64,000 nt of DNA, from NCBI GenBank assembly GCA_016214985.1, contig JACRMM010000026.1, positions 1 to 64,000 of the forward strand, read 5' to 3'. Shown here in pieces: positions 39,201 to 60,920 of the stretch. This DNA is from Deltaproteobacteria bacterium. Lineage in GTDB: Bacteria > Desulfobacterota > Deferrisomatia > Deferrisomatales > JACRMM01. Position 1 is the first letter of the stretch. Every line of letters starts with the position of its first letter. A program made the translations under genes and the position numbers. A model generated the notes under the pieces. The model made no database searches. It worked only from the letters and a program-made list of their open reading frames with translations, and was not told where the DNA came from.

Positions 39201-39440
39201 TGCACCGTAGGTGCCCGGAAGCGCCAGTGGGGCGGACCAGAACTGTCCCCCCAGGTAGTCGGCCCGGAACCGGAGTGTGCCGGTGCCGAGCAGGGACGTC
39301 GGAAACCGCGCGAGCCCCTCCCCGTCGGTCGCGGCGCTCTTGCCGGTGTAGGAACCGGCAGCCGTAAAGGCGAATACCTTCACGCCGGGTAGCGCGCGAC
39401 CCTTCGAGGTGCTCACGCGCACCGTCACTTCGGTGGGCAC
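36255..39440 (-). repeat. Thirteen Cna-B/carboxypeptidase-regulatory-like repeats at the C-terminus of the giant protein
   Basis: Consensus VPVYLFTxAGxYLGLSxTTDxxGxAxFxLPxGxYxFRADxLGxxFWS, 13 copies counted. Confidence 0.92.
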
Positions 39441-42400
39441 CGCGGTCTGGACCGTAAAGGTCACCTCGTCCCAACCGACATTGCCCACCGCGTCAACGGC
39501 CTCGACCCGCACGGTGTGAGGTCCGTCGGTCAGGTCGTGGAGTGCCTCCCCGGACGGCAGGATGAGCGGGCTCCCGTCTAGGACGACCCGTACCGTCCCG
39601 TCGGTCGCCGCATAGAGGAGGGTCTGGGTCGACGTCTGCGTCACCCCGGCCGCGGGCGAGGTGATCGATACCACGGGCGGCGCCGTGTCGACCGTGAAGG
39701 TCACCTCCGCGGAGGCCGTCCTGCCCCCGGGGCCCGTCGCCTCTATGCGCACGAGGTGCGCGCCGTCGGCGAGGGGCCCCAGGATCTGCCCCGAGAGCAC
39801 AGGAACCAGCGCATCGTCCAGCGTGACGACGGCAACGCCGTCGGTAACGGTGTAGTCCAGAACGGGGGTCGCGTCCGGCGTCGCCCCTTGCCCCGGCGAA
39901 GTGATGGTGACCGTCGGCACGAGGGGGCACGAGGACTCGTAGGCCCCCATGTCCGGAGCACACACCCCGTCGCCGTCGCCGTCCTGCGGCCTCGGCGCTC
40001 CGTTCCTGTCCGAGGCCGGGCTCCCCAACGGCGAACCGGCGTCGATGCAGGGAGAGCCCTCCAAGAGCCGAAAATCGCCGGACGAAGGGTCCGCGAACCA
40101 GGGATCGGTCGCCAGGTTGCCGGCGCCCGGCTGACCGCCACGGATGTCCGAGTAGTTGATCGAAACCAACTGGGTGCCGGCGACGAAGATCTCCTCTCCC
40201 GCGTCGTCCCACAGGATGCTGCCGGTCACCTGGGTCTCGGAGGTGCCCTGGTCGACCGCAATTCCGCTTCCCTGCTGGGCCACGTTGGCGGCCAGGGAGC
40301 AGTGGGTCAGCTGTGTCACGCCCCCGAGCACGAGCACGCCTCCGCCGAGCGCCGGGGTCGTGTTGGCCGCGATGACCGAGTTCTCAAACGTGACGGTGCC
40401 GCCGTAGTTCGTGGCGCCTCCTCCCCCGGACGCCGCAGTATTTTGCACGACCGAGCAGCGGTCGAGGACCGCACTTCCTCCGAACGTGAACACGCCGCCG
40501 GCCCAGGAACTGGCCGCGTTGCCCTCGACGGTCGAGCGCCGGATCACGGTCGGCTGACTGGAAAACACGACGGTGACTCCGCCGCCGTAGCCTGCCCGGT
40601 TCGCCGTGATGAGGGTGTCGCTGATGCTCGGCGCCGCGCCCGTCGCGTAGATCCCCCCGCCGAAACCCGACGGCCCCGCGTCGTTCCCTGTGACGACACA
40701 GTGCTCGATCCGCGGCCTGCCGTTCGATCCGACATAGATTCCCGCGCCCGACCCCTTGCCGTTGCGCAGCGTAAGCCCGCGCAGCACCGTCGGCTCCCCC
40801 TCTCCGTGGTTGAACGTCACGACACTTCCGGCTCGTCCTCCGTCGATGATCGTAGCATCGACCTGGGCGGGGTCGTGGGGATCCCTTCCGGTGAGCGTCA
40901 CCGCCTTGCCGAGGAAGTTGATGTTCGCCCCGTGGACTCCCGGCTCCACCACGATGACGTCCCCGTCCCGCGCTGCCCCGAGAGCGTCTTGGATGCCTTC
41001 CCCGGGACAGACGTTCAGGGGGTGGGCGCACGAAGCGGACCGGATCAGGAAGCGCGACTCGGCGCTCCCCGCATTGCCGGCCCGATCGACAGCCTCCACG
41101 CGCACCACGTGGGTCCCCTCGGACAGGGGGTCCAGCGGCTCGCCCGAGGCTCGGACGACCGGCACCCCGTCGAGTTCGACGACCACCGAGCCATCGCTGG
41201 CCGTGTAGCGTAGAACCGGCGTCACCTCCCAGACCCCTCCGTCCTCCGGAGCGACGAGGGTGACCGAGGGCGGCAGGGTATCCACCTCGAAGGAGACCGA
41301 CGCCACCCCGAGGACTGAGCCCGCCTCGTCCCGGACCTCCACGCTCACGGTGTGGATGCCATCGGCCAGGGGACTCAGCTCACTCCCCGACGTCGTTGCT
41401 ACCTCGACGCCGTCAACGAGCGCAACCGCGGCACCGCCAGCGGCGGCATAGCTCAGGACCGGCGCATTATCCGAGGTGACACCGGCGTCCGGAGAGGTCA
41501 GAAGGACCAACCGACGCGAGTCGACGGAGAAGGTCACCTCGGCAGCGCCGACGTTTCCGGCCGCGTCCACCGCCTCCACGCGGACGGTGTGATCCCCGTC
41601 CCCCAGGGGCCCCAGCGTCTCCCCGGACCGCACAGCCACCGCCTCTCCGTCAACCCGGACCGACACGGCACCGTCGCTGGCGTGATAGGCGAGCAGGGGC
41701 GCCTTCTGGTTCGTCAGCCCGGCAACCGGAGAGCCCAGGGTGACCGTTGGAGCCACGGTGTCCACGGTGAACGCCACCTCCGCGGCCCCCACATTGCCCG
41801 CAGCGTCCACCGCCTCCACTCGGACTCTGTGCTCGCCGTCGGCGAGGGGTCCGAGAGCCTCCCCCGATCGGGTCGACACCGGGGTCCCATCGATCCGAAC
41901 CGTCACGGCACCCTCCTCCGCCGTGTGGAAGAGTGTGGGCGCGGCCTCGTGGATCGCGCCGGCGGCGGGTGCCTGCACGCTGACCCGCGGAGGCGCTGCG
42001 TCGACCGTGAAGGACGCCTGGGCAAGCCCGACGTTTCCCGCACCGTCGACTGCCTCCACTCGAACCGCGTGGTTTCCGTCCGCAAAGGGACCCAGCACCT
42101 GCCCGGACCGGGTGGCAACCGCGACTCCGTCGACCCGGACCGTCACGACCCCCTCGCTCGCCGTGTACAGGAGAGGAAGCGTAGTCTGGTTCGTGAGGGA
42201 AGCGCTGGGAGAGCTCAGGAGCACGACGGGCGACACCGTATCCACGACGAAGCTCACGACCGCGGCGCCCACGTTGCCGGCCCCGTCCACTGCCTCCACA
42301 CGAACGCTGTGGTTCCCGTCCGCCAGGGGGCCCAGCGCGTCCCCCGATCGCGCCGGCACGCTCGCCCCGTCCACCCGGACCTCGACGCTCCCCTCGGTCA

Positions 42401-48400: not shown

Positions 48401-51400
48401 AGGCCAGGCCGTCCGCGTCGAAGAGGGAGATGCGGCCCGAGGATGTGGCCACGGCAAACCCGCCGTCCGGCAGGGCGGCCAGCGCGACGATCGCGCCGGA
48501 TCCGAAGAGAGCGCCGCGATCGTCAGCCGCCACTCGAGCAATCCACGCTCCCGAAGGATCAAGAATCGTGATGCGCGCGGCCTCCGGCTCGCCCGCGACC
48601 CACCGCCCGCCGGCCAGTCGGGCCACCATCCGCGCGCCGTCGATCGAACCCGCTCCCAGGGGGGCCTGAACGCTGACCGACCCGACAAACACCCGGACCA
48701 CGCTCTCCGTCCGATTCCCGGCCCGGTCGCCGACCTCCACGACGATCTCGTAAAACCCCGAGCCGACGCCGGCGGCATTCCAAGAGCACTCGATGGACAC
48801 CGGCGTCGGCCCCGTTCCGGCGGCGATCTCCGAGCCCTTGTCAGTGCCCGCTTGGCGGGCCGAAACCCGGTACCAGGCGAGGTCCGCGTCGGTGGCAACG
48901 GCTCGAACGGAGACCGCCCCGCTCACCGCCGCCATCTCCGAGGGCGCCAGGATCGAAATCGCGGGGGCGGTGTTGTCGAACCGGACCGCCACGCGAGACT
49001 CGGGGGCCATCGCGTCCGAGAGCCGCGACGTGAGCCGAAGCGTCCAGAGCCCGTCCCCAAATCGCCGCGTGTCCACAGACCCCAGGGCGCCGAAAGGAAC
49101 TCCCGTCTCGCCCTCCGCCACGCGAGTCCACGCGGCGGGGCTTTCGCCCTCCCCGAGATCCAGACTCCACCGGGACGGCGATTCCGCCGAAACGGTGCCC
49201 GTCACGACGAAACCGTTCCGAAGCGCCGCCCCCGAACTCGGGGACACGATCTCGGAGACCGCGGCCCCCACGGGAAGCCGCCCGGGATCGACAAGGAAGT
49301 CGTCGAGATGCGGCGGCCATCCTCCGATCGCGGCCAGACGCGTGCCCAGGAACGCCATTCCTCCCGCGCAATCGTCGAGCGGATGGGTCACGGACCCGTC
49401 GATCCGAGCGATCACGCCACCGCTCGGGTTCAAGAGCACGATGCGCGCGTCGACCCCGCGGCCGCCCGAAACGGCGATGAACCCGCGGTCGTCGACCGCC
49501 AGGAAGGCGCCCGGGGAAAAGCTCCAAGGGTCCGGGGGAGACACGAAGGGCGTCGGAACCTCGGCAAAGGGGCTCCCGTCCGAGTCGAAGACCGATACGC
49601 CTCCGGAGGCGTTGAGCACGAGGAAATGCCCCTGGCCGTCGACCGCGACGTCGAAGCCCGAGTCCAACCGGGGAAGCGTCCTCGTCACGGTTCCGGTCTC
49701 GTCCAGGCACAGCAGGCTCCGGTCCGTCCAGGCAGCTACCCCTCCCCCGGGCAGCGCGGCCACCCGCGTCCGGTAGGACGGGGGGATTGCGACCGCAGGC
49801 GTCAGGGGCGCGCCGAGGAAGGAGTAGGCTCGGAGGCGCGACGTCCCCGCCACCCAGATCCGGTCTCCGGACACCACCAGGTCCATCCCGTCGTCGAGCC
49901 GGTCCACCGCTGCGATGGACAGGGTCGCCGCGGCCGTGCCGTCCGCTCCCAGGCGCTGCACCTCGCCGCCGGTCCGAAGGACCCAGAGATTCGAGCCGTC
50001 GGACGACAGGGCCACGGGGTAGACCCGAAAGATTCCGTGATCGAGGAGAACGAGCGGCCCATCCCGGTCGAAGCGCACGGCCGGCGGGCTCTCCCTTCCC
50101 TCCCCGTCCACGGCCCTCACCTCGTAGAGACACCGGCCCGCCTCGACCCCGGACTTGAGGATCTCCACGGAAAGGACTCCCGGCGCAGTGTTGACGAACG
50201 ACACCTCGTCGACCCACCCGATGACCGGACCGCAGAGGTCCTGGACCGGTTGAGAGAGCTCGGTCCCCGCGGTTTCCGCCAGCACCTCTCCGTCGCGGTA
50301 GATCCGGTACGCCGCCGGCGGCGCACCGGGACCCGGGACCCAGGACAACACGGACACGAAGGGCCCCATCTCGCCCCTGAGCCCCCGCGGTGCGGTCAGA
50401 GCTGCGCGCTCGAGGCGCAGGGGCACCTCCACTCGGTTCACCTGCCCCGAGGTATCCTCGGCCGTCAGGCGCAGGAGCGCGGTCGCCGGGACGTCGACCG
50501 GTGGGTCCCACTCGGCCAGCCGCCCCTGCTGCGTTCCCGTCACCCCGGAGGCGAGCGACAACCACTGCCCCCCCGCAACGGACACTTCCAGCACCCAACG
50601 TCGAAGGAACCGGTCGCGGACCGTGCCGACCACCTCCACGCGGCCGCCGAGCGTGGATCCTTCGGAGGGGCTCCTGATCGCCACCAGGGGTGGAGATCGG
50701 TCGAGTGAGGTCTCGACCGAGGGAGCGCTCACGTTTCCCAGGCCGTCGACGGCCGCCACTTGGTAGCCGGCCTCCGGTCGGCACCAGCCCGCCACCTCCC
50801 CGTCCACCGTGTTCGACTGTGACGGAGCCAAGAACCGCGCCAGAAGGACCGTCACCTCCTCCAGCCTCACGTAGGCACCGGCCCAGCGGAGCCGAATCCC
50901 GGTTCCGAGCACCGGCGGTTCGAATCGCCGGCGCCCCCCGCCCCCGGGCGAGGCCGAGAGGCTCGGGGCCGCCACCCACTGCCCCGCCCTGCGCACCTCG
51001 ACGACCACTGGGGCTCCGAGTTTCTCCGGCCGGATCTCGAGCCCCGCGAAGGCTTGCTCAGTGTCGTACACGAAGCCCCACCAAGCGTCTTCTGCGGGGA
51101 GAACGAAGGCCGCGGTATCGAGGCGTCCGTCGCAGGCCTTGCCGGGGTCCACGACGCCGGAGGCCTCGATCGCCGCGCGGGGCGACCACTCCAGGAGGAG
51201 CGGCTCACCGTCCCGGTAGACGAAGTATCCGGCAAGGTCCGCCTCCGAAGCTCGGTTCCAGCTCAGGTCGACCCCTCCGGCCCGATCCTGGGCGGCGAGG
51301 CCCGAAGGCGACGAAGGCGCCAGCGTATCCACGCGAACCGTTCGGGTCGTCACCGTCGAGCTCCCGGATCGGTCCCACGCGGTCAAGGTGAGCTCTGCGG

Positions 51401-54400
51401 TTCCGACCCACTGCACGGGCGGATTCCACACGGTCAAGAGCCCGCGGGCGGGCGTCTCCCAACCCTGCGCCAGGCGCACGATCGACTGGGTCCCGAGGCG
51501 GACCTCGACCGTCCAGTGGTCGAGGAACCGGTCCTCGACCGTACCGACGACTCGGACCTCCCGGCCCACGGTCTCCTCCTCGGCTGGCTGCGCCAGACGA
51601 ACCCTCGGTGGCAAGGTATCTACCATGATCGGGGGCGAGTGGAACCCCTCGTTGCCCGCTCCATCGACCGCCGCAAGAGACCAGGCGTGCTCCGTGTGGG
51701 CCGGATCGCTCACAGCCGTGTCGAGGAAGGTAGGCTCCACGACCAGTCCCGTGGCCCAGTCCGGCCATACGGCCACGTCGGCCAATGCGACCGCCGCACC
51801 CAGGCCCTGCGACTGAGGAAATCGCAGGCGCAGCCGCGTGAGGGCCGTGGGCGAAAACGGCACGGACCGGACCGGCAGTCGGTTCTCATTCACGGTCGCC
51901 AGGACCACCCAGGAGGACCCTGTCCAGCCCTCGGCCACTACGGTCGGCGGGATCTCTCCCTGCCGCGACCTCGGTCCCGACAGAGGGTTCAGCGCCGGAT
52001 CGACGAAGGTGAGCGTGACACCCCTCACGCGCACCGGCTCGTCGAAGTCGAGCCCCCACACGAGGTCGCCGACGCCCCCTGCACCGTGCCACTCGCTTCG
52101 CGGGTCGTCGTCCACGGCCCGAGAAGCCTCGGTCGGCTCGATGGAGGCCCAGGCGCGCCCCAGGGAGGAGATGTCCGCGGTGTTCAGGCGTTTGCCGTCC
52201 CGGTAGATCGCGTAGCCGGCGACGTCGGCCTCCGCGCTCGGCGCCCAACGGAGCGCGACGCCCGCCGCGGTGACGAGCGGCTCAACGGACGAAACAGCCG
52301 CCGGCGGGGCGTCGTCGATCGAGAAGGTGACACGGGCCTCCGACTCGTTGCCGACCTCGTCGCGGGCCTGGAGCCGCAGGGTCACGGACCCCTGGAGCCC
52401 GGCCGTGCGCCAAATGGCCCGGTCCCAGCTTGGCGGGCTGCCGCTTACTGCTGCCGGCTGCCACTCGACGGGATCCGGCCCGTACCCCCAGGACCACTGG
52501 GCCCAGAGGAGGGTCCCATCCTGGACCGTGGCCGACACGGAGACGGTCCCCCGGCTGAGAGAGTCGGAGGCAGGCGACGAAATGGCCACTCGGGGCGGCA
52601 ACGCATCGATCGCGACGGTGACGGCCATCCCCTGGTTCCCCGCGCGGTCGACCGCGCGCACCTCGTAGACGGTCTCGGTCGCGTCCAGCGACGCGTCCAG
52701 AAACTCGGTGTCCGTGACGAGGCCCGTGCCGAGCACAGACACCTCCGCGACACCCAGCACAAATGCGCCGCCCCCGGGTGGGCGCGTCGCCCGGAGCCGA
52801 AGGCGGTCGCTGATCACAGCCCGGGGAAGGACGACCGAGAGGGCGTACCACGTACCGCCTCCGTTGGCACCGGGAAGCACCGCATGCCACGGTCCGCCGA
52901 CCGTCTCCGCGACCGTCTGCCAATCCTGTCCGTCCCACACGTCAAGCGTTCCCTCGGTGGGCGCCGGCAGCGCCAGCACGGTCATCGCCTGAAACCGGAC
53001 CGTGATCTCCCGGAGCTCCTTTCGAACCGGAAACACCACTTCCAGCACTTTGGGCCCTTCGTGAAGGTCCGACAGCCACGACGTGCTCTCGATCCCATCG
53101 ACCGCCGCCCAGGCCTGATGGCTCTCCGACTCGAGGTACACGCCCGACGCCGCGGCGACGGCCTCTTCCGCGAGGTTCCCCGAATTCAGAGCGTGCCCGC
53201 CCCGCGCCACGAGATACCCGGCAACGTCGGCCGACGGCGATGGCTCCCAGTGCAAGTGGGCCCCAGCGTTGCCGAGGAGGGTGGCGGTGAGGGCAGAGGG
53301 AGCCGCCGGCGGCGCGGCGTCGACGATCACGGGGACGATCTGCTCCGCGACGTTTCCGGCCTCGTCCCAAGCGCGCACCCGAAGCTCGACCGCGGCCTCC
53401 CGATCCGAGAGATCGTCAACGTACAGGGTTCCCAAGATCCCCTTCGCGCGGGGCTCGGCATACCGGCCGGCCGTGAGCCACTGGCCCCCTGCGTACCTCC
53501 AGGCCAGCTCATAGCCGCGCAGAGTCCCGTCCTCCACGCTCCCCCGGATCTCGAACCACGCGGGCACGCGATCGCCCGCAGACGGCGTCGTCACGTGCAG
53601 GCGAGGTGCCAGAGCGTCGACCAACGCCGTTGCGACGGCGCTCTCCCGACCATACGCGTCGACGGCAGTGACCGCGTAGAGGCCCTCGATCACCGTCAGG
53701 CCGGCGTCCAGAAAGGCCGTCCCGGTGACCGTGTCCTTCGGCTCTGCCGTCAGAATCCTGACCTCTCGGAGAACGCCGACCACGTCCTCGTCGCTTCCCG
53801 CCGTGACCAGGATGCGGATCCCGTCCGTCACCGTGCCCTCCAGGAGCCCGTCGTAGCGGTGCGCCGCCCCGTTGTTCTCAACGAAGACCACGGTGCGCCA
53901 GCCCGCCCCGTCTCGCGTCTGGATCTGGTAGTCCTTGCCGAAGAACCGTTTGCCCCAGGGGTCTTCCAACCAGTCGACCGCCACCGCCCCGAGCCGGAAC
54001 GGCTGGGGGAACTGGAACGCAATCCACGCCGGGCGGACGAACGGTGAAGGTACCCAGTAGGTCCCGAGGCTCTCGTCCGCGGCCTTGGACGCCGCATACC
54101 AACCCTGGGGGTCGACCCAATTGCTCGAGGCGGTGATCGTCGCCAGCGGGGCCACGTTCGTGCGGTTGAGCTTCTCGCCGTTTCGGTACACGTTGTACCC
54201 GACCACGTCCCCCTCGAGCGGCGCGCTCCACGTCAGCTCCACGTCTCCCCCCGCTCCCACGCGGGCCCCCAGGCCCATGGGCAGAGACGGGCAACGCGTC
54301 AGCACGTAGACCGTTACCGTGGTCTCGGTCCGCTTTCCCGAGAGGTCGGTCGCGGAGAGGCGGAGGGCGTAGAGCCGGTCGGTGTCGGCCGGAGGCGTCC

Positions 54401-57400
54401 AGCGCACGAGCTCTGCCGCGAGAGGGACCGAGCCCCGGCCGGCCGCGAGCTCCGTCCAGAGGGCCGACGCACCCTGGGGTGCGGCCTCCAGTCGCCACTG
54501 GAGCAGGTTCGTGTCGCGAATCGTTCCCCGGACAACGAGCGGGCCTGTGGCGACGATTCCGTCGAGCGGAGCGAGGAGCGACACCTCGGGCACGTGGTCG
54601 TCCACCAGGACGGAATCGGAGAGAGCGCTCTCGTTTCCCACCTGGTCTACCGCTGTCACCCGGTAGACACCTCCGATCTCCGGCAAACCGTCGTCCAGGT
54701 ACCGGTGATCCGCCAACAGCCCTCCCCTCCCCGTATCGGAGAGGCGCACGAGGTCGAGCCCGAAGGACCAGCCCTTCTTGACAGCCCGGGTGATCAGGAT
54801 CCGGAAGAGGTTGCTGCGGGCCGGCACGGGGATCGTGTGGATCCGGTGCCGGAACGCGTTGTCCCACACCGTGAGGACGGTCTTCCAGGACCCGTCCGCG
54901 TAGACCTGGAGCTCGTAGTCTCGCGGCGGCGCGGCCCCGGTCCCTGCGACCCAGAAGAGCTCCACGCGGTCGATGGCCGCGTCGAAGGGAAACTGCTCCT
55001 CCCAGAAAGCGGGAAGCGTCCCACACAGCCACGGGCTGGGCGGGTCGGTGATGGGCCCCCGAGCGGCCTCCGTGCTTCCAGCCGACGCGGTCGGCACGCC
55101 CTGACGAGACACCAGGGCGTCGTTGACGAGGACACCCTGTTTGAAGACGTTGTACCCGCCGAGGTCCGGAGCGGACGGGGCGTTCCAGAAGAGCTCCACG
55201 GACGAGGAACTCGCCGCCGAGGCGACCAATCCTTCGGGCTTCGGCGGTGGGGTCGTATCGACCCTAACGGTCCGCTCGACGGCCGTCTCCCGGCCCGCCA
55301 GGTCGCGGGCCACGAGGCGCAGCCGCCACGGCCCGTCTTCGCCGGCGGGCGGATCCCACACCGCTACGACGCCCTCGTCGATCGGTGTGTCCCACGTGTC
55401 CACCACCTGGTACGAGGCCGGGCGCTCGCCGGGCCCGACCTCGAGCCGGTAGTCGAGGAGACGCTGGTCCGCCACCGTGCCCTCGATCTCCAGGTGGCGC
55501 CCGACCCGGTCGCCCTCGGCCGGCGAGGTGATCGACACGCGCGGGGCAAGATTGTCCAGGTGAACCTCTTCCGAAGGAACGCTCTCGTTGCCGGCGCCGT
55601 CGAAGGCGGTCACCCGGTAGGAGTACTCCAGCGGGCCGACCGCGTCGTCAACGAACGACGGTTCGGTGGGCGTCTCGGCCCCCGGCCCCCGGTACACGTG
55701 CACCTCCCGGATCCCGAACCGCAGCGTCTCCCGGTCCACCGACCGGGTCATGTGCACCCGAAGCCGATCGGCGCGCACGGCCGTCGGCAGGTCGACCCTC
55801 CAGGGGTTTTCTTGGAGATCGGTGACCGTCACCAATTCGACCCAGTCTTCGACCCCGGCGTCCCAACGCTGTAGGCTGAAGTCCTGGGCCGGGACGAAGG
55901 GATCCCACTCGATCGCGGCGCCAGTCACCGGGTACACCCCGTCGAAGAGCAGCCGAACCCAAGCCGGCACCTGATGGAGCGTGCTGTGCCACGCGGTGAG
56001 GGAATCACCGTCGTTCGCGCGCCAGGCCGCGTTCGTATCGCCCCCGCACGGCCACGAGCTGGCCTTGGCGGTCGCGTTGGGGGCCACGTCGCGCACGTCG
56101 AGCCGCTTGCCGTTTCGGTATACGTGGTAACCCGCGACGCCGGGCTCGGGTACGACCTGCCAATCGAGACGCACCGAGCCTCCCTGGTCGAGGGCGGCCA
56201 ACCCGGAGGGCGCTGCCGGAGCCTTCGTGTCGATGCGGACCGTGACCGTCGATTCTCCCCTCCGGTCGCCCTCGTCGAGGGCCGAGAGCCGGAACGTGAC
56301 CGGGCCCTCGGCATCGTAGGGAACCTGCCAGAAAGCGAGCGCCGTCGGGGAGAGAATGGGCAGGAGCGCGCCTTCCCGGTGGGCGAGCGTCTGCCAGTAA
56401 GCCGGGGCGTCCCCGTCTCCGACCTCCACCCGGTACTCGCGCAAGAGCGGGTCGTCCACGGTCCCCGAGATCGCCACCCAGGTGCCGGCCGGGAGCCGGA
56501 GCGCCCCGGCCACGGGCGCCGTGAGCGCCACGCGCGGCGCAGACCGGTCGACCCGGACGCGGTTGCTCTTCGGACTCTCGTTGCCGAACCGGTCCACGGC
56601 CGTAACGCGGTAGGCCGCCTCCGAGGCCACCGACAGCGGCTCGCAGTACGTGGTCCCGGAGACGAGTGCGCTCTCTTCGGGCCTTCGGAGGTGCACCTCC
56701 GCGATGGCGCCCACCGAGTAGGCGGTCGGACCCTGTTCGAGGAGGATGCGGACGCGGTCGGTGGCCACGGGCGCAAAGGGGTGTTCGGCCCTCGGCCGGA
56801 AGCCGTCGCGCACCTGGGCCACGGTCGCCCAAGCGTCGGCCTCGTCATCCCACACGGACACGGTATAGTCCCGACCCCACAGCCAGTCGTCTGGCCACCA
56901 GTCGATTCCCACGGCCGAGAGGACGAAGGGCTGCGGCAGGTCGAGGACGACCTCCACGGGCTGCGCGAAGGGCTCGGGCCGCCATCCTGTCTCGGGAAAG
57001 CCGTCGTTCATGTAGGAGACCGGGCCACTCAGGTCGAGGAGATAGGGGTTGCCGCGCCCGTCCAGCTCCACCCGCGGCGTTGCCACGGGCACGGTGATCC
57101 GGGCCAAGAACGCCACGTCGGAGACCGTGAGGGGGATGCCGTCCCGATAGATGCGATACCCCGCCAGGTCCTCCGCCGGCCCCGAGCCGTTGGCCTCGGT
57201 CGAGGACGCGGTCCACCCGAGGGTCAACCCTGACTCTGCCTCGGTCGCGGAGAGCCCGGCCGGCGCCTCCGGCGGCATCGCGTCCAACAGGAACTCCGTG
57301 CGGGTCACCTGCGTCTGCTCGAACTGATCCCGCGCCGTGAGCCGAAGCGCGAAGCGCCCCGCGCGAAGGACGGGGTACCACACCGTCATCACCTGACCCC

Positions 57401-60400
57401 AGCTCACCGGCGCCATGGACCGATGGATCTCCTCCCAGGCGTCCGGCTCCTCGCCAGTCGCGGCGATGGCCCCTACCTCGATCGCGTAGTCCTTGAGGTA
57501 GCGGTCCTGAACAAAGCCCTTCACGACCACCGCTCGCCCCACCTGCGAACCCCACTGCGGGGACAGCAGAGCGACCCGCGGTCCCCGGAGATCCACCACC
57601 GCCGCCGGGGAAGGGGCGGACCGGTTGCCCACGTCGTCCTGGGCCTCGACCGTGAGCCCGTACTCCCGCTCCTCGGAGGCGGTTTCGAAGATCGGGGTCG
57701 TCAAGAGCGTCTCCGCCAACACCTGCACCTCTGCGAGGGCGGGGTACGGCGCCGGAGGTTCCTGCACCTCCATCGGGGTGCTCTGCCCTTGACCTCCCGG
57801 CATCACGCCCTCGTCGACCACGACGCGCACGGCCCAGACCGGCGCGGCCGAGGAGAGCTCCGCCGTGACCTCCTCGTCGCCATTCTCGTCGGTGGACCAG
57901 CGGGGCACCCACAGGCCATGCGCATCCTTCGTTTCGATCCGAAAACGGCGGGCCACCATGGGCGAACGCCAGATGGTGACCACACGCCGCACCGCCTGGG
58001 GCGCCGCAAACTCCAAAGCCCACCAGCAGGGATAGGCACCCTCCGGGGGTCGCCAGTAGGAGCCGCGGTCCCCGTCGACCGCGGCTCCGGCGGACCGGTC
58101 CACGAAGCCGTCGGCGTAGGACGCCGACGCCGACACCGCGCCGGCACGCGCTACGTCGGCGAGTCCCGGCTCCGCGCCGTTCAGTACGACCCGGTAGCCG
58201 GCCAGGTCGGGCTCGGCGTTGGGCCGCCACGTGAGCCTCACCGTATTGACCGCCACGCTGGCGTCGAGCCCCACGGGAGGGGCCGGAGCCACCGTGTCGA
58301 CCCAGACCCGGACCCGTTCCTCACGACGATTGCCGATACCCCCGCCGTCCACCGCGGACAGGCGCAGCGTGACCGGTCCGTCGAGCCCCGTGGGCGGATG
58401 CCAGGTGAAGAGCCCCCCCTCGACCACGGGCTCGGCCCGGTCGTCTGCCCGCCGCCACTCGGCCGGCTCGCTTTCCACGTAGTCTCCTTCGACCCAGTCC
58501 AGCGCGTAGCCTTGGAGAAAGTCGTCCGTCACGGTTCCCGTCACGGCCACCTCGGGCCCGACTCTCTGGCCGGGTTCCGGCGCCGTCAGCCGAACCACGG
58601 GCGGCTCCAGGTCCATCAAGGTGAACGCTTCGGAGGGCTCGCTTTCGTTGCCGGCCGCGTCGACGGCCGTGACCTCATACCGCGCCGGAATCGTCGCGAG
58701 GGTTGCGTCGGCGAAGCTCGTCCCCGGGATCAGGCGACCGGGACCCGCCTCCAGGAGGCTCACCTCGCGGATCCCCACGAATTCCCGCCAGAGCCCCTCG
58801 TCGATCCGGATCCGCATCCGATCCGTCACGACGGCGGCCGGAAGTACGATCACGGAGCGCTCCTGAAGGTTGTCCTTCACCACAGCCACGTCCGTCCACG
58901 CCGCCCCGTTCCAGACCTGGATCCGGAAGTCCCGGGCCGCCACGTCGAATTGATACCAGTCGATCACGGCGGCCCTCACGCTCCTTGGGGAACGGAGGTC
59001 GAACTGGACGGTGCACGCCTCCGGTTCCCACGCCTCGTAGGGCCGGCGGATCGACCACCACGAGGTGGCCGGGCTGCCGTCGATCAGATTGGGCGGGTCG
59101 AAGGCCGCCACGTCGCGGAGGTACTCCGGGAGGTACTCGCGCAGGTTGTAGGAGTCCGACGCGGAAGGCACGGAACCGGGGGCCAAGTCCACGGCGTTCA
59201 CCGGGAGGCCGTCGCGCCAGAGCCGGTAGCCGACCACATCCGGGGAGGGCGAGGGCTGCCAGGTGACATCCACGTGATCCCTCGCCACCAGGGCCGCGGC
59301 GAGCCCGGTGGGAGGCTCCGGGGCCACGGTATCTTCGGAGCCCACGGTCGCCGGGAGCTCCGACCGGGTGTTGCCCGGGCTCGTCTGCACGATCAGCCCC
59401 CTCGGGTCGACGACCGCGACGAGGCTTCCCGGGCCCGGCGCCACTCCGATGCGCCACGGCACCGCGATGTCGGCCAGCCCGCCGGGCTCGAGGGACGCCA
59501 CCGTGGCCGACCCCACCAGTGCCCCGTCGGCCGGATCGCCCCAGTAGAACCAGACCTCCAAGGCGCCCGTCCCGCGCGTGCCCTCGAGCCGAACCTGCCC
59601 CTTGATCAGGACCTCCGCGCCGGCCGAGAGGCTTTGGGGAGCGAGCTCGAGCAAACCGTCGGCCGTGAAGAGCTTCAAGGAGCCGGAGACCAGGGACACG
59701 GTGCGGGTCCCACCTACGTCGATCGTCCCGGAGGCCCCATTGTTCGCCTCATCGGCCTCGTGGATGAGGTCTGCCGGGTCGAGCTCCACCGACCAGGTGC
59801 AGACTCCGGCCAGGGCCGACGAATCCACCGAGAAGGTCACGGTCGTCTGCTCGCCCAGGCCGAGCCCCTCGAGCAACCGCTCCTCGGCAATCACCCCGGC
59901 GCTTCCCGCCCCCTCCAGCCGGAAGCGCACCGGCACGGCAAGGGCGGCGACCGAGCCGTGATTGGACAACGTCACCGCCACCTGCCACCGGTCGCCCGGC
60001 ACGGGATCCGGGCCCGCGACCACGCCCTGGACGGCGAAACACAGATCCGCCAGCCCTGCGGAAGAGAGGGCCGACACAGCCAGGGCCGTGGTCCAGGGAT
60101 CCTCTTCCCAGGAGCCGTCGGGCAACTGGGCCTCGGCGAGGTACACGCTTGCGCGCTGCTCCACCTCAGGCAACCATCCGCCGATCCCGCGAAGCGCCGC
60201 GAGCACTTGAGCCGTTGCCGCCGGGCTGCTTCCGCCGACACCCCAACCGCCGTCGGCGTTCTGGTGAGAGAGCAACCAGTCGCGGGCGTGACCGACGCCG
60301 GCCTTCGAAGGCGGCGTCCCCGAGACGAGCAAGGCCTCCAGTATGGTTGCCGTGACCGCCGCGACCTCCTGACCCCGCTCCCCAACGCCCCAGGACCCGT

Positions 60401-60920
60401 CGGAGCTCTGCGCGCCAAGGAGGTAGTCGCGGGCCGGCGCCGAATCGGACAGGGTGTCGAAACCCGCCTGGGTCAGGGCCAGGAGCGCCAAGGCCGTGTG
60501 GTAGGGAGACGCTGCGCTGCCTGCCACGCTGCCCCATCGGCCCGAGCGGATCTTCTGCGACGTGAGAGGCGTGAGCAGCGTGGGCGGCGTCTCGGCACCG
60601 AGAATCCGCGACGCTGAAGAACCCTCGGCCAACGTCTTCCCGGATTGGATTGAGAGCCACAGCCTCGATCGTGCCGAGGCCTGCGAGCCCAGCGCCCCCA
60701 AGACGCGTGACGTGGAGCGAACTCCGGAGGGGTCGCGGACCGATCGCCACGAGCCGTCGGACCGGACGTTCGCGAGCAGCCAGCTCCTGCCCCGATCCGC
60801 CTCCTCGTCGGCGGCGGCAGGATGAGCAGGCCCAACGAGAGAGGCGACCCAACTCGCCACGAAGAGGGCCGTGAGGATGCGATTTCGACCAAGCCAGGTA
60901 TCCCTTGAGAAACCGCTCAT
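36255..60920 (-). CDS. Giant secreted multidomain mosaic protein (8,221 aa)
   Basis: Single uninterrupted ORF; N-terminal signal peptide (ALFVASWVASLVGPAHPAAA-DEE), GGGAGG-like RBS (cctccc at 60927-60932 on +); recognisable repeats throughout in one frame, so the frame is real. Confidence 0.95.
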   Translation of the reverse strand: MSGFSRDTWLGRNRILTALFVASWVASLVGPAHPAAADEEADRGRSWLLANVRSDGSWRSVRDPSGVRSTSRVLGALGSQASARSRLWLSIQSGKTLAEGSSASRILGAETPPTLLTPLTSQKIRSGRWGSVAGSAASPYHTALALLALTQAGFDTLSDSAPARDYLLGAQSSDGSWGVGERGQEVAAVTATILEALLVSGTPPSKAGVGHARDWLLSHQNADGGWGVGGSSPAATAQVLAALRGIGGWLPEVEQRASVYLAEAQLPDGSWEEDPWTTALAVSALSSAGLADLCFAVQGVVAGPDPVPGDRWQVAVTLSNHGSVAALAVPVRFRLEGAGSAGVIAEERLLEGLGLGEQTTVTFSVDSSALAGVCTWSVELDPADLIHEADEANNGASGTIDVGGTRTVSLVSGSLKLFTADGLLELAPQSLSAGAEVLIKGQVRLEGTRGTGALEVWFYWGDPADGALVGSATVASLEPGGLADIAVPWRIGVAPGPGSLVAVVDPRGLIVQTSPGNTRSELPATVGSEDTVAPEPPTGLAAALVARDHVDVTWQPSPSPDVVGYRLWRDGLPVNAVDLAPGSVPSASDSYNLREYLPEYLRDVAAFDPPNLIDGSPATSWWSIRRPYEAWEPEACTVQFDLRSPRSVRAAVIDWYQFDVAARDFRIQVWNGAAWTDVAVVKDNLQERSVIVLPAAVVTDRMRIRIDEGLWREFVGIREVSLLEAGPGRLIPGTSFADATLATIPARYEVTAVDAAGNESEPSEAFTLMDLEPPVVRLTAPEPGQRVGPEVAVTGTVTDDFLQGYALDWVEGDYVESEPAEWRRADDRAEPVVEGGLFTWHPPTGLDGPVTLRLSAVDGGGIGNRREERVRVWVDTVAPAPPVGLDASVAVNTVRLTWRPNAEPDLAGYRVVLNGAEPGLADVARAGAVSASASYADGFVDRSAGAAVDGDRGSYWRPPEGAYPCWWALEFAAPQAVRRVVTIWRSPMVARRFRIETKDAHGLWVPRWSTDENGDEEVTAELSSAAPVWAVRVVVDEGVMPGGQGQSTPMEVQEPPAPYPALAEVQVLAETLLTTPIFETASEEREYGLTVEAQDDVGNRSAPSPAAVVDLRGPRVALLSPQWGSQVGRAVVVKGFVQDRYLKDYAIEVGAIAATGEEPDAWEEIHRSMAPVSWGQVMTVWYPVLRAGRFALRLTARDQFEQTQVTRTEFLLDAMPPEAPAGLSATEAESGLTLGWTASSTEANGSGPAEDLAGYRIYRDGIPLTVSDVAFLARITVPVATPRVELDGRGNPYLLDLSGPVSYMNDGFPETGWRPEPFAQPVEVVLDLPQPFVLSAVGIDWWPDDWLWGRDYTVSVWDDEADAWATVAQVRDGFRPRAEHPFAPVATDRVRILLEQGPTAYSVGAIAEVHLRRPEESALVSGTTYCEPLSVASEAAYRVTAVDRFGNESPKSNRVRVDRSAPRVALTAPVAGALRLPAGTWVAISGTVDDPLLREYRVEVGDGDAPAYWQTLAHREGALLPILSPTALAFWQVPYDAEGPVTFRLSALDEGDRRGESTVTVRIDTKAPAAPSGLAALDQGGSVRLDWQVVPEPGVAGYHVYRNGKRLDVRDVAPNATAKASSWPCGGDTNAAWRANDGDSLTAWHSTLHQVPAWVRLLFDGVYPVTGAAIEWDPFVPAQDFSLQRWDAGVEDWVELVTVTDLQENPWRVDLPTAVRADRLRVHMTRSVDRETLRFGIREVHVYRGPGAETPTEPSFVDDAVGPLEYSYRVTAFDGAGNESVPSEEVHLDNLAPRVSITSPAEGDRVGRHLEIEGTVADQRLLDYRLEVGPGERPASYQVVDTWDTPIDEGVVAVWDPPAGEDGPWRLRLVARDLAGRETAVERTVRVDTTPPPKPEGLVASAASSSSVELFWNAPSAPDLGGYNVFKQGVLVNDALVSRQGVPTASAGSTEAARGPITDPPSPWLCGTLPAFWEEQFPFDAAIDRVELFWVAGTGAAPPRDYELQVYADGSWKTVLTVWDNAFRHRIHTIPVPARSNLFRILITRAVKKGWSFGLDLVRLSDTGRGGLLADHRYLDDGLPEIGGVYRVTAVDQVGNESALSDSVLVDDHVPEVSLLAPLDGIVATGPLVVRGTIRDTNLLQWRLEAAPQGASALWTELAAGRGSVPLAAELVRWTPPADTDRLYALRLSATDLSGKRTETTVTVYVLTRCPSLPMGLGARVGAGGDVELTWSAPLEGDVVGYNVYRNGEKLNRTNVAPLATITASSNWVDPQGWYAASKAADESLGTYWVPSPFVRPAWIAFQFPQPFRLGAVAVDWLEDPWGKRFFGKDYQIQTRDGAGWRTVVFVENNGAAHRYDGLLEGTVTDGIRILVTAGSDEDVVGVLREVRILTAEPKDTVTGTAFLDAGLTVIEGLYAVTAVDAYGRESAVATALVDALAPRLHVTTPSAGDRVPAWFEIRGSVEDGTLRGYELAWRYAGGQWLTAGRYAEPRAKGILGTLYVDDLSDREAAVELRVRAWDEAGNVAEQIVPVIVDAAPPAAPSALTATLLGNAGAHLHWEPSPSADVAGYLVARGGHALNSGNLAEEAVAAASGVYLESESHQAWAAVDGIESTSWLSDLHEGPKVLEVVFPVRKELREITVRFQAMTVLALPAPTEGTLDVWDGQDWQTVAETVGGPWHAVLPGANGGGTWYALSVVLPRAVISDRLRLRATRPPGGGAFVLGVAEVSVLGTGLVTDTEFLDASLDATETVYEVRAVDRAGNQGMAVTVAIDALPPRVAISSPASDSLSRGTVSVSATVQDGTLLWAQWSWGYGPDPVEWQPAAVSGSPPSWDRAIWRTAGLQGSVTLRLQARDEVGNESEARVTFSIDDAPPAAVSSVEPLVTAAGVALRWAPSAEADVAGYAIYRDGKRLNTADISSLGRAWASIEPTEASRAVDDDPRSEWHGAGGVGDLVWGLDFDEPVRVRGVTLTFVDPALNPLSGPRSRQGEIPPTVVAEGWTGSSWVVLATVNENRLPVRSVPFSPTALTRLRLRFPQSQGLGAAVALADVAVWPDWATGLVVEPTFLDTAVSDPAHTEHAWSLAAVDGAGNEGFHSPPIMVDTLPPRVRLAQPAEEETVGREVRVVGTVEDRFLDHWTVEVRLGTQSIVRLAQGWETPARGLLTVWNPPVQWVGTAELTLTAWDRSGSSTVTTRTVRVDTLAPSSPSGLAAQDRAGGVDLSWNRASEADLAGYFVYRDGEPLLLEWSPRAAIEASGVVDPGKACDGRLDTAAFVLPAEDAWWGFVYDTEQAFAGLEIRPEKLGAPVVVEVRRAGQWVAAPSLSASPGGGGRRRFEPPVLGTGIRLRWAGAYVRLEEVTVLLARFLAPSQSNTVDGEVAGWCRPEAGYQVAAVDGLGNVSAPSVETSLDRSPPLVAIRSPSEGSTLGGRVEVVGTVRDRFLRRWVLEVSVAGGQWLSLASGVTGTQQGRLAEWDPPVDVPATALLRLTAEDTSGQVNRVEVPLRLERAALTAPRGLRGEMGPFVSVLSWVPGPGAPPAAYRIYRDGEVLAETAGTELSQPVQDLCGPVIGWVDEVSFVNTAPGVLSVEILKSGVEAGRCLYEVRAVDGEGRESPPAVRFDRDGPLVLLDHGIFRVYPVALSSDGSNLWVLRTGGEVQRLGADGTAAATLSIAAVDRLDDGMDLVVSGDRIWVAGTSRLRAYSFLGAPLTPAVAIPPSYRTRVAALPGGGVAAWTDRSLLCLDETGTVTRTLPRLDSGFDVAVDGQGHFLVLNASGGVSVFDSDGSPFAEVPTPFVSPPDPWSFSPGAFLAVDDRGFIAVSGGRGVDARIVLLNPSGGVIARIDGSVTHPLDDCAGGMAFLGTRLAAIGGWPPHLDDFLVDPGRLPVGAAVSEIVSPSSGAALRNGFVVTGTVSAESPSRWSLDLGEGESPAAWTRVAEGETGVPFGALGSVDTRRFGDGLWTLRLTSRLSDAMAPESRVAVRFDNTAPAISILAPSEMAAVSGAVSVRAVATDADLAWYRVSARQAGTDKGSEIAAGTGPTPVSIECSWNAAGVGSGFYEIVVEVGDRAGNRTESVVRVFVGSVSVQAPLGAGSIDGARMVARLAGGRWVAGEPEAARITILDPSGAWIARVAADDRGALFGSGAIVALAALPDGGFAVATSSGRISLFDADGLALGGFQAPGGPRIAVGGMAVDALGRIVLAGGPRGYGLFDTAGESLFPAGSAGSQPSGIGAVVGAAADGIGDVYLLVEGGSALRVYDRWGQLLEIRPVTGGPARALAVDEDGRMLLAYDDRVELLAPEGSRLSEWTTRGALGGLGSGQVLGVWLGSGAAAVIDAGAGVPLLFGLSSVIPETPERSAEVRHPVEGELVPARFPVSGTAAGPGVTGYRVEVGEGRDPEAWTVVIQGTRAASGAVLGIADLSSISSGDVTVRLVTQGGQGAAESRVHCVVDAEAPSAAILSPAPYGLLREGERAHVQVAGGEDTLYSVSLERDDLPWVRKVLASGAGPRTDLSVGWNPSDFPPGPYRLVVYAEDAAGNRTRADEVLSTGRVRYAGIRTPVLLPGEILQRIESDPEGFLGITDRRVLLIGPSGDVVREALPGMTAAERADFVNVRACSEGRAFLFTSAPQLRIYDREGRWLRSVELKGLKRPVFFAFDPGGRIVVAGMDGTSLYPAEGGDPLPWIGIRYDGRYTYQGPTGADRYGNGYSLVSRGDTPADVEIRDPLGRSLLRWESCHHGGAGNLSVDAWGHILASATWAGLSFWTPDGTFLARTSGPGYGAAEGWLSSGFTATWGPDGLVGVASDNRLLIFDARELYPDSGAPSALVVLPSDRPDLSKPIVIFGSAAGGGVYTLTVEGPAGALTVAQGPASVVDGMLGVVDATEWDEGAYTVRLSVAHTAGVVEDHREFVVDRSLPTVAISSPVGFTGVTAPTPVIGRVLDANAADWVLAIGRGTSWQTLASGQGVVDGELGRLDPAQLGPGAYVLRLTGSDRAGYSSSHEVSVSVGPITLGNVLPVGSSPWYPAGFVALPDGSGVCRMRDNWERSPPDLVRMELSTGATLGRVGQPPAAGATAAMLARAPSGAAVLWQGDRRWWVQLLSGDGSVARTVEIPWGSGPQRVRRPVALVVGDDEVLVLEASQVKVFDLDGNHRTTWGELGDDPGEFASLKAGALDRFGRVLLLDRGSWLHVYSSDGVFRARIELAGSPAASCAFVGSVDVDRLGNIAVSTEAGVSLYRPDGRLLTVLDSYSSSGVEFGDVRSVAFDAAGNLWIQNRWQLHVLRLDWNALAADFPEVSLVNPADRSLLGAQAWIVGRAAGEEPLSWELAVGEGEEPDSWERIAQGDQPVPLGILGGWRAEERADGPHTLRLSVRYGTGAVREVLRRIVLDATPPELVLDSLPDRGAVPLGPVPVLGRVADAHPGAFRIKYFDTAAPEPQWQARVGGDGWYPEGSDLGTWDTRVVGPDVFRVRAWALDEAGNLAVVARDVSVSPVQFEETSYLEPRSCSVAAASRYGRVALVSPEGTSVVISAGAQPLATAPIPFAAPWSDVRADALGFDETGELVGLFRLSSTDGATSVGLARWSADGLLLEARDGIDAGRSGTSCEDGFAAVSRTALACAAGGDLRRYSFDEPSSSPLPYPSDLLPYPQKLAAWPGGYLVLYGEAGAQEGFARRAVVTTDKGAPLRVIEPPAGWGSAAYEQIAADGAGSLYLLSRDGFWHTQEDVCGSVFTWRYRVEKYGEDGRRLWSMGALGPFGGRLTSVPTVLTGTAGTWFAWEPERGELEVFRALDDSVDQSPPVGSLSLELGDGPVSGSVSVVGTAGEPFGGFWRLQAVRADDPRSAVDLGRGTSPVANGVLAEWETLGFDGDWLIVLDTWDAAGNRSTASVPVTVRNFGVPVLDPLSSPVTDSTVVVSGVGTGGTTIGLLLNGAAAGQVDVSSEGRFEVELGGLAEGENRIAARLGDGQGHWGLASGALVVVADREPPAVVATPSGGIFNAEQWVTLEASEAATIRFTTDAAAVEGDWRVYAGPVKVAVSETLWFYAVDTAGTRGEVRAQVYVIDIEAPVGSVSVNGGAAQTASPAVSITLSAADAGGAVVAMRLRNAGGPWTPWEPYGTTRAWTFPGGDGEKAVEVEFRDAAGNCGSAAASVFLDATSPVVALTSPKTGFTADRSPRLTYAVTEGSVEVRVDGASVPARSGDALGPLADGNHSVRVEAVDGAGNVGAAVVSFVVDTVSPVVLLSSPSASLTNQTTLPLLYTASEGVVTVRVDGVAVATRSGQVLGPFADGNHAVRVEAVDGAGNVGLAQASFTVDAAPPRVSVQAPAAGAIHEAAPTLFHTAEEGAVTVRIDGTPVSTRSGEALGPLADGEHRVRVEAVDAAGNVGAAEVAFTVDTVAPTVTLGSPVAGLTNQKAPLLAYHASDGAVSVRVDGEAVAVRSGETLGPLGDGDHTVRVEAVDAAGNVGAAEVTFSVDSRRLVLLTSPDAGVTSDNAPVLSYAAAGGAAVALVDGVEVATTSGSELSPLADGIHTVSVEVRDEAGSVLGVASVSFEVDTLPPSVTLVAPEDGGVWEVTPVLRYTASDGSVVVELDGVPVVRASGEPLDPLSEGTHVVRVEAVDRAGNAGSAESRFLIRSASCAHPLNVCPGEGIQDALGAARDGDVIVVEPGVHGANINFLGKAVTLTGRDPHDPAQVDATIIDGGRAGSVVTFNHGEGEPTVLRGLTLRNGKGSGAGIYVGSNGRPRIEHCVVTGNDAGPSGFGGGIYATGAAPSISDTLITANRAGYGGGVTVVFSSQPTVIRRSTVEGNAASSWAGGVFTFGGSAVLDRCSVVQNTAASGGGGATNYGGTVTFENSVIAANTTPALGGGVLVLGGVTQLTHCSLAANVAQQGSGIAVDQGTSETQVTGSILWDDAGEEIFVAGTQLVSINYSDIRGGQPGAGNLATDPWFADPSSGDFRLLEGSPCIDAGSPLGSPASDRNGAPRPQDGDGDGVCAPDMGAYESSCPLVPTVTITSPGQGATPDATPVLDYTVTDGVAVVTLDDALVPVLSGQILGPLADGAHLVRIEATGPGGRTASAEVTFTVDTAPPVVSITSPAAGVTQTSTQTLLYAATDGTVRVVLDGSPLILPSGEALHDLTDGPHTVRVEAVDAVGNVGWDEVTFTVQTAVPTEVTVRVSTSKGRALPGVKVFAFTAAGSYTGKSAATDGEGLARFPTSLLGTGTLRFRADYLGGQFWSAPLALPGTYGASVDIAEETASVSVRQGGVPKAGIKVYLFTAAGTYLGLSATTDAQGRASFELPAGRDFKFRADNLGSQYWSTSVTVGSGAPTEVPVDSGGGRLTLGVDPGGGAPLVGVSCYLFSAGGAYLSLTAKTDARGQVVFDVPSASYQVRCDTLGYSFWSEAVPVSSDGNAVLSIPHLDVTVSVQGIYGTSVEPRPGLTAYLYTESGTYLGQAKTTDASGQVTFRLPRKSYKVRADCLSFPYWSTPTTGEDREIPIPEALADVTVTRGEVPVAGVPVYLFTPAGAYLGLSATTGVDGTATFRLPARSLRFRADVQGHQYFQDAVLAADQRNPVAISTGGGPFTLEVQAGPGQPLAGLSSYLFNETGTYLGVSHATDTAGRAVFQLSDGTYRFRIDVLGMSFWSDLVRLPGPTSASVNIPRATASIRVVQAGAPQAGVTVYLFDAAGSYLGLNAVTDGEGVAAFSLPVGQRYRFRADLLGSQFLSGPIEVSDGLNECVVDTGGGTLTVRLDDGEGTAIAGAKAYLFGAGGSYLGRSGSADASGLVPFLLPSGTYRVRCDYLGYSFWSEDVTVTADAVLALTIPHQDVAATVSGEYRGTKQPLEGVPVYLFTEAGTYLGLAQETDVSGRVRFRLPVRSYTLRADTLSFQYWSEPFTGGSPEIVVPEAQAEVSVTRGSAPVEAVPVYVFNPQGTYLGLSGTTDGSGAVSFLLPAESYNVRADVQGNRYWSGEVALAADESNAVEIPTGGGSFTLRVEDGAGAPIEKVRAYLFGPTGVYLGSSATTSSAGEAGFDLSAGSYEFRVDRKGYSFWTGPVDVPTHRSCTFPIPHRRITATVRLDRSGSVIPAPDVPVFLFTETGAYVGESERTDESGEASFLLPDGSYRVRADVLSAHFWSLPFTGSDPAVTILEGEARVSVVVAGMAAAGVPVHVFNGSGSYLGLSSTTDPEGRAAFWLPAGPYRFRADVGGNERFGEGEVAEGRVISVVIDGP
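39430..39910 (-). repeat. Two further Ig-like repeats between the beta-helix and the Cna-B array
   Basis: PTVTITSPGQGATPDATPVLDYTVTDG.. and PPVVSITSPAAGVTQTSTQTLLYAATDG..; equivalent positions 240 bp apart (39715 and 39475). Confidence 0.88.
39930..41040 (-). other. Right-handed parallel beta-helix (choice-of-anchor Q-like) domain within the giant protein
   Basis: GEGIQDALGAARDGDVIVVEPGVHGANINFLGKAVTLTGRD..GIYVGSNGRPRIEHCVVTGND..GGIYATGAAPSISDTLITANRAGYGGGV..LLEGSPCIDAGSP..DMGAYES. Confidence 0.85.
41040..42480 (-). repeat. Six tandem Ig-like repeats in exact 240-bp register
   Basis: Equivalent motif (ccgacgttt/cccacattg-like) falls at 42268, 42028, 41788, 41548, 41308 and 41068. Confidence 0.93.
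43550..50070 (-). repeat. Five superunits of about 1.4 kb: beta-propeller/NHL-like block plus two Ig-like domains
   Basis: Propeller-like blocks begin near 50060, 48690, 47290, 45930 and 44460; each is followed by a pair of Ig-like domains (e.g. VTGTVSAESPSRWSLDLGEGESPAAWTRVAEG). Confidence 0.78.
50700..59330 (-). repeat. About nine repeated units of FnIII with inserted discoidin-like domain plus an Ig-like domain
   Basis: Recurring order: VxLxWxPSxxxDVAGYxVYRDGxxLN - [ASSxxxx..AxDGxxxTxWxx..WxxxxFxxPxxVxxVxIxW..DYxxQxWDGxxWxTVxxVxxN..RxR] - xxFLDxxLxxxxxYxVTAVDxxGNES - PRVxxxSPxxGxxVGxxVxVxGTVxDxxLxxYxLEVG. Confidence 0.82.
60050..60830 (-). other. N-terminal alpha/alpha-toroid (prenyltransferase/squalene-oxidase repeat-like) domain of the giant protein
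   Basis: LLGAQSSDGSWGVGERGQEVAAVTATILEALL..WLLSHQNADGGWGVGGSSPAATAQVLAAL..LAEAQLPDGSWEEDPWTTALAVSAL. Confidence 0.8.

Follow-up and report, generated by a model that had tools for sequence, protein, structure and literature searches.

The first 64,000 nucleotides of contig JACRMM010000026.1 from a Deltaproteobacteria bacterium (Desulfobacterota; assembly GCA_016214985.1), hereafter the window, carry on the minus strand a single open reading frame (ORF) of 8221 codons without an internal stop (36255-60920). Its product opens with a signal-peptide-like start, SQHop/prenyltransferase-like toroid repeats and CARDB, and continues with an array built from fibronectin type III (FnIII), discoidin (F5/8 type C, F5/8C) and immunoglobulin-like (Ig) domains. 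Beyond the array follow further Ig and propeller-like blocks, CHB_HEX and Big_13 repeats, a beta helix and CarboxypepD_reg/MG-like repeats. The original prediction, made from the nucleotide letters and their translations, had described about nine discoidin-like domains nested inside FnIII domains between 50700 and 59330. This interval lies within the frame and holds exactly nine such units, U1 to U9 (59321-50694; residues 534-3409), each 208-244 residues long.

Every unit is laid out in the same order: an N-terminal FnIII half of ~42 residues (strands A, B, C and C'), an insert of 122-155 residues and a C-terminal FnIII half of ~41 residues (strands E, F and G). An Ig-like domain of ~100 residues, absent from the earlier description, stands behind each unit, so that the true repeat is FnIII[F5/8C]-Ig, 306-350 residues long. 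Successive units start 319-350 residues apart, and the last repeat (U9 with its Ig domain) spans 306 residues. The units have diverged considerably (pairwise identity 22-35%, mean 28%), and there is no tandem repeat at the DNA level. Within the FnIII parts, the Trp of strand B and the Tyr of strand C (..GYNVYRNG..) are invariant, and the F strand (..YRVTAVD..) retains the motif YxVTAVD. Directly behind the array lies a tenth FnIII domain, U10, whose halves are separated by ~37 residues instead of the usual ~12; the end of this loop, WVDEVSFVNTAPG, resembles the final discoidin strand. This resemblance is suggestive only, and U10 may be a deletion remnant from which most of the insert has gone.

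Table 1 Positions of the repeat units and associated features in the window
Feature	Insert	Position	Strand	Basis
U1, FnIII with F5/8C insert	59195-58731	58608..59321	-	Profiles; insert above Pfam cut-off
U2, FnIII with F5/8C insert	58163-57705	57585..58286	-	Profiles; insert above Pfam cut-off
U3, FnIII with F5/8C insert	57125-56664	56541..57272	-	Profiles; insert above Pfam cut-off
U4, FnIII with F5/8C insert	56096-55671	55548..56222	-	Profiles and structure model; insert above Pfam cut-off
U5, FnIII with F5/8C insert	55121-54717	54594..55247	-	Profiles; weak Pfam F5/8C match
U6, FnIII with F5/8C insert	54164-53730	53610..54290	-	Profiles and structure model; above Pfam cut-off
U7, FnIII with F5/8C insert	53183-52719	52599..53309	-	Profiles; weak Pfam match
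U8, FnIII with F5/8C insert	52181-51744	51612..52304	-	Profiles; weak Pfam match
U9, FnIII with degenerate F5/8C insert	51194-50829	50694..51317	-	Insert profile matches, Pfam does not
Ig-like domains, ~100 residues, one per unit		50400..58610	-	Pfam (Big_7) and model
U10, FnIII without discoidin, ~25 extra residues in the corresponding loop		50061..50399	-	Profiles
Giant ORF, 8221 residues		36255..60920	-	ORF call and Pfam
Toroid (SQHop_cyclase-like) repeats and CARDB		59733..60803	-	Pfam; N-terminal features common to relatives' giant proteins

Evidence for a discoidin domain within FnIII

Pfam recognizes the inserts far more readily than their hosts. Over the unit region, F5/8C is matched at 3.7e-50, and fn3 is seen as a truncated piece only (profile positions 13-38 of 84), with a summed score of 41.9 that passes the cut-off. 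Unit by unit, the F5/8C gathering score is met in U1, U2, U3, U4 and U6, the matches of U5, U7 and U8 are weak and U9 has none, whereas no single unit attains the fn3 gathering score of 25 bits (best 18 bits). The case for FnIII is therefore built on nearer FnIII homologues and on structure models. With the insert excised, some units match Pfam fn3 (2-81) and RGI_lyase (9-74 or 9-85) across the junction, below curated cut-offs. A profile of the ten excised FnIII parts matches relatives' uninterrupted FnIII domains over their full length, with up to 72 bits, and sees the nested FnIII domains as two pieces, ~1-44 and 41-82. The insert profile in turn matches stand-alone F5/8C domains end to end, on contig C18 of the same genome.

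An independent converse test relied on a hidden Markov model (HMM; 86 positions) built from uninterrupted FnIII domains of other genomes alone. In each of the nine intact units this HMM finds two separate matches (~1-44 and 46-85 of 86), and in each of the nine excised units a single unbroken match (1-85 of 86, or close to it) scoring 43.2-74.5 bits. The layout shared by the units is far beyond chance. We also scanned for the junction blindly, trying 504-882 pairs of cut position and cut length in each unit; the optimum scored 52.7-82.2 bits against a median over all cuts of 22-38. It fell in the same C'-E loop in U1, U3, U4, U5 and U6, and a few to some twenty residues off that loop in U2, U7, U8 and U9. 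The recurrent interruption point proposed from the sequence thus holds in all nine units by the two-piece match, and by the blind scan at the loop in five and near it in four.

AlphaFold2 models made with an alignment of the nine units place a discoidin jelly roll between the two strand sets. Both the model of U6 (mean predicted local distance difference test score (pLDDT) 89.5, predicted template modelling score (pTM) 0.78) and that of U4 with its Ig domain (pLDDT 91.2, pTM 0.74) show the strand order A, B, C, a short C', jelly roll, E, F, G. U4, near 55560-56230, is the unit that the original prediction had singled out for modelling, and neither model resolves into two sequential complete domains or an insert that lacks the jelly roll. 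DSSP assigns strands C and E, even though the only local neighbour of C is the two-residue C' and E has no local partner. That both are called strands despite these missing partners suggests pairing across the insert. Nesting, as anticipated, thus draws support from sequence profiles, from paralogous FnIII domains that run uninterrupted in proteins of this type and from two models of high confidence, and we regard it as almost certain. A sequential architecture, in which short Ig-like halves or linkers flank an independent discoidin, could draw on the weak single-unit fn3 matches that end within the first half, but such a match is the pattern expected of a split domain, after excision of the insert all nine units match uninterrupted FnIII through the junction, FnIII homologues in proteins of this kind have no break at that point and the models give complementary strand sets on either side of the insert, all of which makes it very improbable.

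Foldseek searches of the PDB relate the inserts to the CBM32 chitosan-binding modules 4zy9 and 4zxe, with template modelling scores to the target of 0.86-0.89 and root-mean-square deviations (rmsd) of 1.6-1.7 for U6 and 2.4 for U4. Among the nested inserts having a residue at the position, W79, W131 and R159 of U6 are conserved in 15/15, 16/16 and 16/16. In LamA, a W-W-R triad holds the discoidin domain together (PMC2789033); by their spacing, the three U6 residues probably correspond to it. Across all sixteen inserts (those of the window and of the relatives described below), the conserved columns are fold determinants and the other loops are variable.

Predicted function and comparison with known systems

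We propose that each unit is one FnIII domain with a complete discoidin/F5/8C (CBM32-like) domain inserted in its C'-E loop (often called the DE loop), and that the FnIII strands close around the points where the insert enters and leaves its host. This loop tolerates insertion and is among those diversified in engineered FnIII binders, and in a discoidin domain the two ends are neighbours. Because these ends adjoin each other, the discoidin would leave the FnIII chain path unlengthened and project sideways. Units alternating with Ig domains would then form a long secreted stalk displaying nine lateral binding domains, whose task may be multivalent attachment to glycans of cell surfaces, biofilm matrix or polysaccharide. 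The signal-peptide-like start, CARDB, FnIII and Ig domains fit a secreted stalk. The anatomy of the sequence, the nesting seen by profiles and models and the presence of the module in seven other genomes are observed; lateral projection, secretion, adhesion, a glycan ligand and a single ancestral insertion that was later amplified are what we infer. As a whole, this explanation, with FnIII carrying discoidin in the C'-E loop, in tandem with Ig and serving multivalent lateral glycan attachment on a secreted stalk, is probable. For the ligand, we lean somewhat towards a multivalent, laterally displayed predicted glycan binder, because the nearest structures to the inserts are carbohydrate-binding modules and because binding to several polysaccharides is reported for the discoidin of LamA (PMC2789033).

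The main rival is a pure spacer role, in which the discoidins would make the stalk stiffer, set its parts apart or bring adjacent units into contact, without binding a ligand. Conservation of core-forming residues amid an otherwise variable domain, the degeneration of several inserts and the capacity of discoidin domains to dimerise (PMC2789033) are all consistent with this. Set against them, the closest folds are carbohydrate-binding modules, though this is no proof of binding here, and a lateral insertion would contribute nothing to stalk length. We consider a pure spacer unlikely.

Several observations nevertheless count against the overall explanation that we favour. Closure of the seven-strand FnIII sandwich (A-B-E / C'-C-F-G) is predicted from strand pattern and homology, not from measured contacts. 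By Pfam, the F5/8C domain is degenerate in U9 and partly so in U5, U7 and U8, and some of the nine units may therefore be non-functional. Neither a ligand nor a secretion route or an anchor was found for the giant protein. In genomes of the same family and the same order, large FnIII proteins are present and the nested unit was not found; the closest relatives' giant proteins do without the insert, which is therefore not needed for such proteins generally.

Both folds and the principle of domain insertion are already known; the recurrent nested arrangement is what Pfam, NCBIfam and the literature searched leave unnamed. With CBM32/F5/8C domains (PF00754/PF22633; the Paenibacillus sp. IK-5 chitosan-binding modules 4zxe, 4zy9 and 4zz5), the inserts share the jelly roll and probably the core W-W-R triad. 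The known cases are ordinary sequential domains, whereas the window's inserts sit within another domain and their binding is only predicted. The joined halves match FnIII (PF00041) and FnIII-like RGI_lyase (PF18370) profiles or uninterrupted homologues end to end; unlike PF00041 domains, they have the C'-E loop replaced by a domain of 122-155 residues. Inserted modules in glycoside hydrolases follow the same principle of a folded domain in another's loop, and domain insertion in a GH10 xylanase is reportedly discussed in PMC7848910. The window differs from these in that the host is a small beta-sandwich spacer rather than an enzyme and that the module recurs in tandem. RbmA, the Vibrio cholerae biofilm scaffold with tandem FnIII domains (4kkp, 4be6), is likewise a secreted FnIII matrix protein and gave a weak Foldseek match to the U4-Ig model over ~280 columns; with an rmsd near 19 Å, no rigid similarity and no discoidin insert, it offers an analogy only.

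No PDB chain was found that matches a nested unit all the way through. We considered 8pn5 and related entries (a DUF3472 protein), in which both halves are matched, as a solved example of the nesting, but the second-half match is a continuous stretch of ordinary FnIII that includes the C' strand and has no insert. Entry 8ayr matches by sequence in the strand-C region and in F5/8C; it has no FnIII second half, and its three-dimensional rmsd exceeds 11. Consistent with the original prediction, which knew of no named domain of this type, neither Pfam nor NCBIfam holds a curated model spanning the FnIII and F5/8C composite, and the open-access literature searched for nested FnIII[F5/8C] returned nothing relevant, although it may be mentioned elsewhere.

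If our reading is true, the tolerant FnIII loop that protein engineers exploit also carries an entire domain in nature, repeated in tandem and at a conserved site, and the nested unit would be nature's equivalent of engineering binders into the loops of FnIII. Neither half of the host FnIII scores by itself, so annotation pipelines overlook it, and such nested modules may be under-reported for that reason. Giant uncharacterised bacterial surface-type proteins would also gain a testable hypothesis, that of multivalent glycan adhesion.

Distribution and evolutionary history

In its own genome, full units are confined to this gene, and on contig C18, frames of 1554 and 441 codons encode three stand-alone F5/8C domains (L035). 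We extended the profile search, which had been suggested with the original prediction, across one phylum: a 395-genome sample, a 277-genome class, a 148-genome class and the 23-genome class of genome G280. The phylum sample yielded one further full unit, in G280. Full-length units were present in five genomes of the 277-genome class (G599, G590, G579, G576 and G527), together with a partial unit in G575 that is interrupted by a contig end and frame breaks; the 148-genome class and the remaining genomes of G280's class yielded no further unit. Altogether, the nested module occurs in seven other genomes of the phylum (full in six), spread over two other classes and always once per protein. When U6 alone was used as the query, the sole match was to FnIII only, in a Thermoplasmata archaeon (L045) whose FnIII N-terminal half shares 51% identity with the U6 half across 37 residues. 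Plasmids and phages gave no match to U6.

The position of the module within these proteins is regular. In G280, G590, G599, G579 and G527, it lies in a giant protein of 3901 (short contig) to 5920 codons, where the nested domain is number four of six FnIII domains and the other five are uninterrupted. G576, in which the protein is split into shorter frames, agrees with this fourth-of-six layout as far as it is readable, and a search of its family turned up no giant orthologue whose fourth FnIII is uninterrupted. Like the window protein, those of G280 and G599 have CARDB and toroid (SQHop/prenyltransferase-like) repeats towards the N terminus; they carry FlgD_ig and PD40 propellers in addition.

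Phylogenies bear on how nine copies arose. In the insert tree, U1 to U8 group with the inserts of all seven relatives (92/81), apart from 21 stand-alone F5/8C domains; the U9 insert forms a very long branch outside the nested group in the free tree. A single clade of all sixteen inserts is not rejected by the approximately unbiased (AU) test (p-AU 0.499). The tree of FnIII parts is poorly resolved, and a single clade of the nested FnIII parts is likewise not rejected (p-AU 0.334). The nine units are on average 28% identical to the unit of G280, which belongs to another class, and this equals the mean identity among themselves; amplification, if it happened, was therefore old or fast. The amplification of one nested module that the original prediction envisaged is thus compatible with the trees but not proven by them.

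A different history would have discoidins entering separate FnIII domains of the array independently, at the same tolerant loop. The absence of a resolved clade of unit FnIII parts in the free tree and the outside placement of the U9 insert speak for such repeated insertion. That placement comes with a very long branch, however, while the inserts of U1 to U8 and the relatives form a group of their own without the stand-alone F5/8C domains, a single clade is not rejected for inserts or for FnIII parts, and the identical flanks and the Ig domain behind every unit point to duplication of the whole repeat. We judge repeated insertion improbable. The simplest reading, though unproven, remains a single insertion, after which the FnIII[F5/8C]-Ig repeat was amplified. 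Whether FnIII[F5/8C] is more broadly a conserved, unnamed composite domain of this phylum's giant secreted proteins, grafted once into the DE loop, kept at a fixed position in proteins of ~5500 residues and multiplied to nine in the window's lineage as a multivalent lateral display, seems to us evenly balanced.

The giant proteins have further features of note. In the window, squalene-hopene-cyclase/prenyltransferase-like toroid repeats lie at 60036-60803 (minus strand), near the N terminus of this giant secreted-type protein, and a C-terminal array at 36258-39473 (minus strand) contains at least ten repeats of VPVYLFTxxGTYLGLSxxTDxxGxxxFxLPxxSYxxRADxxGxxxWS (CarboxypepD_reg / bMG3-like, Pfam). 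The G280 protein (L046, a 5920-residue ORF) has an HEFLH (HExxH) motif at residues ~165-175, as in zinc metallopeptidases, in a region that the window protein lacks. The giant gene (L072/L078 and L073) is spread over several frames in G576 (ORFs of 1748 and 1880 codons) and G575 (1650, 449 and 311 codons), through either real decay or sequencing errors. FnIII genes controlled by GEMM are reported in Geobacter (PMC2996986); prompted by this, we looked for a cyclic di-GMP (c-di-GMP) riboswitch upstream of the giant gene and found none in the window. In G579, a c-di-GMP-I riboswitch lies ~1.1 kb downstream of the giant ORF, in the same direction (L071:2246-2323, minus strand).

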